DNA of 64,000 nt from Pseudolabrys sp. (lineage in GTDB: Bacteria; Pseudomonadota; Alphaproteobacteria; Rhizobiales; Xanthobacteraceae). The notes under the pieces are model-generated. The model was not told where the DNA came from. It saw nothing but the letters and a program-made list of their open reading frames with translations, and did not search any database. This document shows positions 29,956 through 38,569 of this stretch, piece after piece. Numbering within the stretch: position 1 is the first letter of the stretch; each line of letters begins with the position of its first letter. Where the stretch lies: positions 124,001 to 188,000 of the forward strand of contig JAUXXH010000052.1 in assembly GCA_030684935.1 (NCBI GenBank), written 5' to 3'. The position numbers and the translations under genes were made by a program.

Positions 29956-29981
29956 GGAACCGGAACCTCTCTCGCCGCGTT
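29956..29981 (+). promoter_or_regulatory. Predicted sigma-EcfG promoter of the gene at 30009
   Basis: GGAAC (29956-29960) and CGTT (29978-29981) are separated by 17 bases, the exact layout of the general-stress sigma factor consensus of alphaproteobacteria. The start codon lies 27 bases further on. Confidence 0.72.
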
Positions 29982-30008: not shown

Positions 30009-30209
30009 ATGCGGCTTCTGTTCGGCATCATCATCGGCGGCCTGCTGACCGTCGGCGGCGCCTATGTCTATGACTCCAACAATGTCAGGATGGCAACAAC
30101 GGCGCCGACCACGGCCGAGCGAACGCTGGTCAACTGGGACGTCGTCGGCACCAAATGGGATGAACTGACCCAGCGCGCCCGGGCCCAGATCCATCAGCTC
30201 ACCAGCTGA
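30009..30209 (+). CDS. Small single-pass membrane protein, probable general-stress gene
   Basis: A 66-residue protein. Residues 1-21 (MRLLFGIIIGGLLTVGGAYVY) form one membrane segment, and the rest (NNVRMATTAPTTAERTLVNWDVVGTKWDELTQRARAQIHQL) is soluble and probably lies outside. GAGGAG precedes the ATG. A predicted sigma-EcfG promoter stands just upstream, so it is likely induced in general stress. No family function is known to me. Confidence 0.75.
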   Translation: MRLLFGIIIGGLLTVGGAYVYDSNNVRMATTAPTTAERTLVNWDVVGTKWDELTQRARAQIHQLTS

Positions 30210-35408: not shown

Positions 35409-37016
<1,608 letters not shown>

Positions 37017-37098
37017 CAGCCCCTCCCCTGCAAGCGGACGAGGGTGCCTTGGCGGCACCGGTTAGGCAATGCCGGCAAATCGGTCGCGGGGCGGCGCC

Positions 37099-37124
37099 GG
37101 AACTGTCCGGTTCCGGCAAACGTT
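37099..37124 (+). promoter_or_regulatory. Predicted sigma-EcfG promoter of the gene at 37151
   Basis: GGAAC (37099-37103) and CGTT (37121-37124) with a 17-base spacer match the alphaproteobacterial general-stress promoter. The gene starts 27 bases downstream. Confidence 0.72.
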
Positions 37125-37150
37125 CTCATTGGAAACCCCGAGGAACCATC

Positions 37151-37465
37151 ATGACTTTAAATGCGCCATATCTGACCATGCTCGCCGCCTTGATATTGGG
37201 TACCGGCGTTGCTGTTGCGCAGACGACCGATCTGCCGCCCGAGCCCGCCCCGCCCGCGCAGCAGAACGCACCGGCCGAGATCATCGCGCCGCCGATGAAT
37301 GCAGGCGAGCGGAAGGCACCTGCGACCACTGGTCAAGACGTGCCGACGGAACTGGCGCCGGGCAAAGGCGAGAGCGTGACGCCCAACAGTCTTCTCAAAG
37401 AACCGAGCGGCAAGGATGCGACCGACATGAAGGGTTCGTCCGATGTCGGCAACGCGACCAAGTAG
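37151..37465 (+). CDS. Small exported Pro/Ala-rich protein, probable general-stress gene
   Basis: A 104-residue protein with a signal peptide of about 23 residues (LTMLAALILGTGVAVA-QTT), followed by a Pro/Ala/Gly-rich, low-complexity mature part (TDLPPEPAPPAQQNAP, ERKAPATTGQ, KEPSGKDATDMKGSSDVGNATK). It is likely periplasmic and unstructured. Its promoter has the sigma-EcfG form. No known family is recognised. It is one of three small genes in a row with such promoters. Confidence 0.72.
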   Translation: MTLNAPYLTMLAALILGTGVAVAQTTDLPPEPAPPAQQNAPAEIIAPPMNAGERKAPATTGQDVPTELAPGKGESVTPNSLLKEPSGKDATDMKGSSDVGNATK

Positions 37466-37521
37466 GGCGCTTTTGTCGCGTGTCATTTCACATATCCGTT
37501 CGCACATCGGCGTGAGGCGCC

Positions 37522-37547
37522 GGAACGCACGTTTGTCTTCGGTCGTT
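37522..37547 (+). promoter_or_regulatory. Predicted sigma-EcfG promoter of the gene at 37625
   Basis: GGAAC (37522-37526) and CGTT (37544-37547), 17-base spacer, same consensus as the two neighbouring stress promoters. The start codon is 77 bases downstream. Confidence 0.7.
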
Positions 37548-37624
37548 GTCCCCACAGTTGCTGCGATACACGCAGCGCATACGCCGCGGGTCGCCGCGGC
37601 GCCATCCAAGGAGGATTATCCCCT

Positions 37625-38074
37625 ATGAAGACATTCACGACCCTGACCGCAGCGGCGGCCCTTATTGCCGGCATGTCGATTGCCAGCGCGCAAAATCCGG
37701 CCGGCCCGGCGCCGGCGACGGGTTCGCCGAGCAACCTCAATGCCGGCCAGGTGACCGGCACCCCCGGTGCCGGCGCGCAAAGCGGCGCCCAGCCTTCCGG
37801 TACCGGCGGCATGCCCGGATCCAGCACGACGGCTGCGCCGAATACCGCTGAGAATCCGCCGCCGAGCGACCCGAACGCCGCCGCGCAGTCAGGCACCTCG
37901 GCCGGCTCCATGAGCGGCTCGCAGTCGCCTGCCTCGGCCACCATGGGTACGCCGACGCCGTCCACGACTGGCGCAGCGCCGTCGGGTGCGGATCGTCCGG
38001 CCCCGGGCAGCCTTGACGCCGGCAGTGAAACAGGCACGTCGGGCGCCCGCAGCGGCGGCACCGCCCCCCGCTAA
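37625..38074 (+). CDS. Exported low-complexity Gly/Ser/Ala/Pro-rich protein, probable general-stress gene
   Basis: A 149-residue protein. The signal peptide ends at about residue 23 (AGMSIASA-QN). The mature part is nearly all Gly, Ala, Ser, Thr, Pro, Asn and Gln (GAQSGAQPSGTGGMPGSSTT, SAGSMSGSQSPASATMG), so it should be disordered and may act as an extracytoplasmic protectant or cell-surface component; this is inferred from composition. GGAGGA precedes the ATG. A sigma-EcfG-type promoter lies upstream and a strong terminator follows. Confidence 0.7.
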   Translation: MKTFTTLTAAAALIAGMSIASAQNPAGPAPATGSPSNLNAGQVTGTPGAGAQSGAQPSGTGGMPGSSTTAAPNTAENPPPSDPNAAAQSGTSAGSMSGSQSPASATMGTPTPSTTGAAPSGADRPAPGSLDAGSETGTSGARSGGTAPR

Positions 38075-38110
38075 GCTAAGCGTCTCGTACCGACGTTCTT
38101 CCGAAAACGC

Positions 38111-38139
38111 CCCCGCGCCGATCAACGGCGCGGGGTTTT
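38111..38139 (+). terminator. Intrinsic terminator after the Gly/Ser-rich gene
   Basis: CCCCGCGCCG and CGGCGCGGGG form a perfect 10-base stem with an ATCAA loop, followed by TTTTA. Classic terminator for the plus-strand gene ending at 38074. Confidence 0.92.
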
Positions 38140-38186
38140 AAATAACCGCCAATACTGCGACGCCGGCGCACGGTAAATTGACCTGC

Positions 38187-38211
38187 GGAACCGCCTATCC
38201 GCGCGCGCGTT
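38187..38211 (+). promoter_or_regulatory. Predicted sigma-EcfG promoter of the csbD-like gene
   Basis: GGAAC (38187-38191) and CGTT (38208-38211) with a 16-base spacer match the general-stress consensus. The CsbD-family start lies 43 bases downstream, and CsbD proteins are known stress genes, which supports the call. Confidence 0.78.
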
Positions 38212-38463: not shown

Positions 38464-38489
38464 AAAGCCCGGCCCGCGTGCCGGGCTTT
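38464..38489 (+). terminator. Hairpin terminator after the csbD-like gene
   Basis: AAAGCCCGGC and GCCGGGCTTT are exact 10-base complements with a 6-base loop. The right arm itself ends in TTT. It closes the plus-strand stress gene and separates it from the cupin gene. Confidence 0.88.
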
Positions 38490-38569
38490 CTGTTATTCGC
38501 GTTCCAGGACGTCTTCACCGAGGCGCGGTCGTCGTACTAGGCTTTGCGCTCCCGCATGGAGACACCCTC

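Follow-up and report, generated by a model that had tools for sequence, protein, structure and literature searches.

Three small genes lie in series on one strand of a Pseudolabrys sp. contig, each behind a GGAAC/CGTT box, and the question raised by this locus is whether the boxes are promoters of the alphaproteobacterial general stress response or chance matches in a GC-rich genome. The stretch of DNA analysed as a whole, hereafter the window, is 64,000 nucleotides long and belongs to a genome with a completeness of 89.6%. As a previous reading of the sequence alone (the sequence-only reading) had claimed, the boxes at 37099 (N17), 37522 (N17) and 38187 (N16) are exact and each stands before a small gene: gene 1, coding for a Pro/Ala-rich protein, gene 2, for a Gly/Ser-rich protein, and csbD, whose product matches PF05532 (Table 1). 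Export of the first two proteins was read by eye from their leaders. All three boxes are on the forward strand, and the distances from box to ATG are 26, 77 and 42 nt (ATGs at 37151, 37625 and 38254, respectively). The explanation that joins all the evidence, which we consider highly probable judging from the sequence, is that the three genes are neighbours transcribed as separate units, all belonging to the general stress response, and for their products a hydrophilin-like role appears the likeliest.

Table 1. Features of the island in the window and of the general stress machinery elsewhere in the same genome
Feature	Position	Strand	Remarks
Carboxyltransferase gene, left of the island, divergent	35409-37058	-	
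P1, EcfG-type promoter of gene 1	37099..37124	+	exact GGAAC-N17-CGTT
Gene 1, 104 aa, Pro/Ala-rich, predicted signal peptide	37151..37465	+	low-complexity region with QQNAPAE motif
P2, EcfG-type promoter of gene 2	37522..37547	+	exact GGAAC-N17-CGTT
Gene 2, 149 aa, Gly/Ser/Thr/Pro-rich, predicted exported	37625..38074	+	
Intrinsic terminator, gene 2 / csbD interval	38111..38145	+	10-bp all-GC stem, then TTTTAAATAA
P3, EcfG-type promoter of csbD	38187..38211	+	exact GGAAC-N16-CGTT
csbD, 60 aa	38254..38436	+	CsbD family PF05532
Intrinsic terminator 3′ of csbD	38471..38497	+	
LigD	L051:1926-4523	-	behind exact box
EcfG-like sigma	L051:6650-7189	-	
NepR	L051:7189-7629	-	frame overlong
PhyR	L051:7615-8424	+	
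Ku	L322:1264-2142	-	behind exact box
Second EcfG-like sigma	L373 (G000:C15:97771-97929)		sigma regions 2 and 4, PhyR_sigma2 match

P1 also contains GGAAC-tgtccg-GTTCC, and two further exact matches are present within the window, at 29956 (+) and 52041 (-). The first of these (29956-29981, +) is another non-coding GGAAC-N17-CGTT, located 27 nt 5′ of a 66-aa ORF (30009-30209, +; MRLLFGIIIGGLLTVGGAYVYDSN...) with no Pfam match; a 78-aa look-alike of this ORF in genome G157 is also found behind a GGAAC-N16-CGTT box. A PADLOC scan gave no match, and an Rfam match over the csbD terminator was rejected as due to chance, being sub-threshold (28.3 bits vs 55).

Chance and conservation of the boxes

Within one genome the signal is modest. 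With spacings of N15-18 the window showed 5 matches vs 1.69 expected, a number reached by 4 of 100 shuffles. Genome-wide, the exact motif occurred at 91 sites in 3.67 Mb, and the control patterns gave 79 (reversed motif), 44 (wrong spacing, N21-22) and 103 sites (reversed, N21-22). The comparison of motif density over the genome proposed in the sequence-only reading thus gave a total that is not evidence of enrichment. By the same reading, such a succession of exact matches was unlikely to be fortuitous; on this genome alone the case is only moderate, as three same-strand sites within 1113 bp were obtained in 0.77% of 20,000 random placements (P ~0.008), made with the 47 + 44 sites on one unbroken sequence, and it is the conservation across Pseudolabrys, described below, that makes it. 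More informative than the total, the 91 sites were sorted by a rough GC3 rule and by the presence of a start codon and a ribosome-binding-like sequence 10-130 nt downstream: 37 were non-coding with such an ORF, 22 non-coding without it and 32 in coding-looking frames. The rule misses some promoters, in fact the LigD box was classed with the 22 non-coding sites that lack an ORF. Taking the first 30 sites of each set, 16 were non-coding and 10 promoter-like for N16-17, vs 9 and 3 for N21-22. More small, apparently exported proteins were observed directly behind exact EcfG-type boxes in the same genome (L012, L324, L303, L318, L323 and L030), and those of L012 and L324 have a PGQMM motif in common.

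Forty-three genomes of the genus were searched; 35 gave a CsbD match, and 32 loci of the close form, window included, were compared by seeking the motif within 150 nt of the orthologues' start codons. The exact motif was upstream of csbD in 30/32 loci, of gene 1 in 25/28, of gene 2 in 15/23 and of an extra gene for a DUF3551-type protein in 3/3, for a total of 73 of 86 regions, which, the loci of a genus being related, are non-independent events. Plotted against spacing, matches are most numerous at 16 and 17, and no other spacing exceeds a count of 3 in any of the sets. When the nine box letters were permuted 2000 times, the mean was 0.067 of 86 and the highest score 12, this last coming from a permutation that amounts to the true motif shifted by one base; control windows 300-450 nt upstream had the motif in 4 of 82 cases. 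The spacers are hardly conserved, with a mean identity of 0.35-0.39 vs 0.28-0.31 in random sequence of equal composition. The sequence features that mark the EcfG regulon, namely GGAAC/CGTT boxes, a spacing of 16-17 nt and nearness to the start codon, are found here and are kept beyond both chance and the level of the spacers. Chance matches would be in keeping with the 91 sites genome-wide, 32 of which look coding, and with controls that yield from 44 to 103; they can hardly be credited as an explanation of the three boxes, because the motif is conserved at the 16-17 spacing across the genus in 73/86 orthologous upstream regions, while the spacers drift.

Relaxing the motif to GGAAC-N16/17-NGTT recovered 23/23 gene-2 promoters, the 8 inexact ones differing at the first -10 base. 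This variable base is in line with the promoters of Sphingopyxis, for which passages of PMC7083833 describe the -35 as rigid and the -10 as flexible. The same freedom did not rescue the 2 csbD and 3 gene-1 regions devoid of the motif. They are, for csbD (2/32), those of G205 and of G209, where only 104 nt are on the contig, and, for gene 1 (3/28), those of G205, G226 and G199, the last having N in its sequence there. The gene-1 start of G216 was not located and this locus was left out of the counts, and G171 and G127, with a boxed gene 1 and no close csbD, are outside the 86.

As for csbD outside the genus, the window protein matches the PF05532 profile over its full length (E 1.8e-21, 76.2 bits vs a cut-off of 40), and of its 180 relatives in named genomes the best 80 were kept. 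Among these, the motif preceded csbD in 21/23 genus-like loci, which overlap the Pseudolabrys comparison set, in 8/33 other, mostly alphaproteobacterial loci (7 with N16 and 1 with N17), and in 0/24 beta- and gammaproteobacterial, Firmicutes and actinobacterial ones. Betaproteobacteria, gammaproteobacteria, Firmicutes and actinobacteria are not known to have EcfG. Distant csbD paralogues within the genus had a box close upstream in 3/10 cases, and the second csbD copy of the window's genome, one of these ten, had none.

Sigma factor and transcription units

In relatives of this bacterium, phosphorylated PhyR takes up NepR and EcfG is set free. The genes for PhyR, NepR and EcfG lie side by side in the window's genome, and that for PhyR is likewise behind an exact box. 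In Sphingopyxis granuli, passages of PMC7083833 list csbD, ku-ligD and phyR as direct targets of the general stress response and give csbD expression as 0.00 in a double ecfG mutant. The proposal of a general-stress island made in the sequence-only reading is strongly supported, at the level of sequence, by the conservation in the genus, the 16-17 spacing, the PhyR-NepR-EcfG set and this published EcfG dependence of csbD elsewhere. A different sigma factor, or mainly the second EcfG-like sigma (C15:97771) instead of the EcfG adjacent to phyR and nepR, could also read these promoters: the second protein does have both sigma regions (2 and 4) and matches PhyR_sigma2, and Sphingopyxis paralogues share the motif hierarchically, according to the passages of PMC7083833 on them. 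We judge this unlikely. The second sigma would itself be of the EcfG type, and a different ECF group would need an identical -35, -10 and spacing. The NepR profile detected a single NepR in the genome (C34), and none beside the second sigma.

With the phyR-adjacent EcfG as the preferred reader, stress would lead phosphorylated PhyR to take up NepR and release EcfG, and we infer from the sequence and its conservation that the EcfG-RNA polymerase would begin transcription within a few nucleotides downstream of the CGTT boxes at 37121, 37544 and 38208, each gene probably forming an independent unit. A single stress operon, for which P1 would be the main promoter and P2 and P3 secondary ones, would agree with genes that are close and on one strand, with the failure to detect a terminator in the gene 1 / gene 2 interval, and with a terminator upstream of csbD in only 10/31 loci (a terminator-like site follows csbD in 28/31). 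In the window, instead, the terminator at 38111, with its 10-bp all-GC stem, separates gene 2 from csbD, and csbD retains a box of its own in loci without genes 1 and 2 (G217, for example), so that a single operon appears improbable. The terminator scan of the region gave 3 terminator-like sites vs 2.1 in shuffles, and sigma-70-like sites were 0 vs 0.3, which says little; since both counts are near the shuffle level, the quality of the long stem is the one informative point.

The exported proteins and the gene-2 promoter

The sequence-only reading gave genes 1 and 2 as having no described function and as candidates for new extracytoplasmic stress proteins. At E 1 neither matched any family of Pfam or NCBIfam, gene 1 being without the C-terminal DUF1236 domain (PF06823) and gene 2 without DUF3551 (PF12071). 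As a correction to that reading, gene 1 has relatives, being the short form of a DUF1236 subfamily, and in other species the slot of gene 2 is occupied by DUF3551-type proteins. The long gene-1 orthologues, of ~185-260 aa, consist of a leader, a linker (PAPAAQQNAPAEKxAPPMNAGE) and the C-terminal domain, for which both long relatives scanned matched PF06823 (G034, E 1e-17; G038, E 2e-20). The short form, found in the window, G212, G203 and G142, ends before the domain, and the window copy keeps leader and linker. When mapped on a tree built from the carboxyltransferase next to it, the short form occupies 4 of 27 rows and requires 3 changes, of which well-supported branches force at least 2. The domain was thus lost or gained repeatedly, and loss is the likelier direction because most relatives carry it.

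Could gene 1 then be what is left of a degenerating DUF1236 gene, with gene 2 and csbD as the only ones of importance? The missing domain and the scattered short forms, with at least 2 forced changes among the 4/27 rows, would suit such a remnant. Against it, window and G212, which are sister rows (99/97), keep P1 and an identical end region (EPSGKDATDMKGSS), and their gene-1 dN/dS is 0.14 over 100 codons, a rough value as the dS of 1.70 is near saturation; we therefore regard decay as very unlikely. The same comparison gave a dN/dS of 0.23 for gene 2. Both genes, each computed for window vs G212, are under purifying selection.

The link to EcfG-type promoters extends to the subfamily in other genera. 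Its profile, which includes the DUF1236 domain and may pick up cousins as well, gave matches at E 1e-20 in 124 of the 198 genomes sampled from the family. The promoters were checked at the 30 best loci, 28 of which were readable (G071 and G128 were dropped): an exact box precedes the gene in 7/7 Pseudolabrys and 15/21 other-genus loci, and the remaining 6 of the latter have GGAAC-N16/17-NGTT. That every DUF1236 gene is linked to EcfG was rejected, as among the 30 best-scoring PF06823 hits, mostly of other architecture, only 4 had a box before an in-frame Met. By sequence, the link belongs to the gene-1 subfamily and not to DUF1236 in general. No EcfG link for DUF1236 was found in the DUF1236 passages of PMC8909678, in which a DUF1236 gene of Rhizobium phaseoli is up, with a fold change of ~8, under aluminium.

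Gene-2 relatives share the leader MKTLTTLTAAAALIAGMSxAxAQ and are built on two plans, one with the low-complexity region alone, as in the window, and one with a linker and a cysteine-bearing, DUF3551-type end (G205, G216, G223, G211, G214 and G227), assigned in these six by tblastn with the G091 protein. In G091, G225 and G224 the DUF3551-type protein is, instead, the product of an independent fourth gene, likewise preceded by a box, and the 77-aa G091 protein matches PF12071. DUF3551 had no mention in the open-access literature searched. Structure models gave a mean pLDDT of 48.0 and no secondary structure for the window gene 2 and a mean of 46.6 for a long gene-1 relative; these values, obtained with 10 and 14 rows respectively, fit disorder and are no proof of it. 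As the models are of low confidence, no fold is claimed for gene 2 or for DUF1236.

A further element distinguishes the gene-2 promoters: 19 of 23 (e.g., L042, L043, L045, L047 and L120) carry a palindrome, GTTCCnGGAAC, with the -35 box as its right half, and 10/23 have an additional GTTCC 3-7 nt downstream. The palindrome was absent from the other island promoters compared (gene 1, 0/28; csbD, 0/32; DUF3551 gene, 0/3). The window itself is without it, since at P2 (37510-37526) the left half is lost (GGCGCCGGAAC), and its closest relative, G212, has it. Searching GTTCCnGGAAC-N16/17-NGTT in the 43 genomes of the genus gave 46 matches vs 7 for the reversed control: 20 are gene-2 promoters, 1 is an other-strand reading in G142 and 25 lie elsewhere. 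In G228 (L137; 3975, 4074), which has no gene-2 match, csbD is preceded by a tandem pair of EcfG-type boxes and the palindromic promoter is kept. Promoters of the DUF1236 subfamily in another genus, in G038 (L038/L048) and G092 (L273), show GGAACnGTTCC at the -35, the reverse of the gene-2 arrangement. A divergent promoter at the palindrome was also considered, but inspection by eye revealed no AACG at a suitable distance, and this reading is left out of account. The palindrome looks like the site of a second, putative regulator, which we would place at the -35 because the palindrome is kept at 19/23 gene-2 promoters and at none of the 28 + 32 + 3 others. A broader scheme, which we put forward as a rather doubtful one, would make the gene-2 promoter a two-input EcfG promoter, at whose -35 a putative regulator competes or cooperates, and the exported low-complexity proteins together with CsbD a two-compartment dehydration shield, in which the folded domains (DUF1236, DUF3551) would be dispensable.

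Possible role and comparison with known systems

The products of genes 1 and 2 would be exported via their signal peptides to the periplasm or beyond and CsbD would be cytoplasmic, as predicted from the sequence, and they could act like hydrophilins, protecting the cell from water or osmotic stress on either side of the inner membrane. Protection is the likeliest role given that hydrophilicity is shared by CsbD and the exported proteins, the latter also having few order-promoting residues; taken by itself, and drawn from composition, this role is a tentative suggestion. Order-promoting residues make up 2.4% of mature gene 2, 11.2% of gene 1 and 16.7% of CsbD, vs 31-34% in two neighbouring proteins; the GRAVY values (Kyte-Doolittle) are -0.80, -0.64 and -0.95 for gene 1, gene 2 and csbD, vs -0.07 and -0.34 for the two neighbours. 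Hydrophilins are defined by glycine >6% and a hydrophilicity index >1. All three island proteins exceed this glycine content (8.8, 18.1 and 13.3%, in the same order), and so do control proteins at 8.0 and 9.5%, so that glycine alone is not discriminating.

Judged by its sequence, the island would be a neat and well-conserved but otherwise unremarkable part of the EcfG regulon, with a known kind of regulation, and it leaves the known working of EcfG unchanged. What it adds is an assignment, at sequence level, of the DUF1236 subfamily and of fast-evolving small exported low-complexity proteins to this regulon, which places them beside CsbD as candidate stress protectants, and a well-replicated case in which the promoters are fixed and the proteins behind them turn over.

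Compared with known systems, the island proteins resemble hydrophilins such as YciG in the high glycine and hydrophilicity of the definition, as given in passages of PMC5437024, and differ from them in that two of the three are predicted to be exported and in that the likeness here comes from composition. Among DUF1236 proteins (PF06823), the relatives of gene 1 have the leader and the QQNAPAEK linker in common with it, and their domain is absent from the window copy. Salmonella YjbJ, of the CsbD family, is among the sigma-S controlled small ORFs in passages of PMC5437024; control by a stress sigma factor would be shared with the window CsbD, the factor being sigma-S there and, as we infer, of EcfG type here. 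Closest is the EcfG regulon itself, with GGAAC-N16-CGTT in Sphingopyxis granuli TFA (passages of PMC7083833) and GGAAC-N17-20-GTT in Sphingomonas melonis Fr1, at a similarly short distance from the start codon. Its Sphingopyxis members csbD and ku-ligD, listed in the same passages, follow a box here too. The difference is that the Pseudolabrys locus, as known from its sequence, has three serial promoters, four in some relatives, each before a single small gene.
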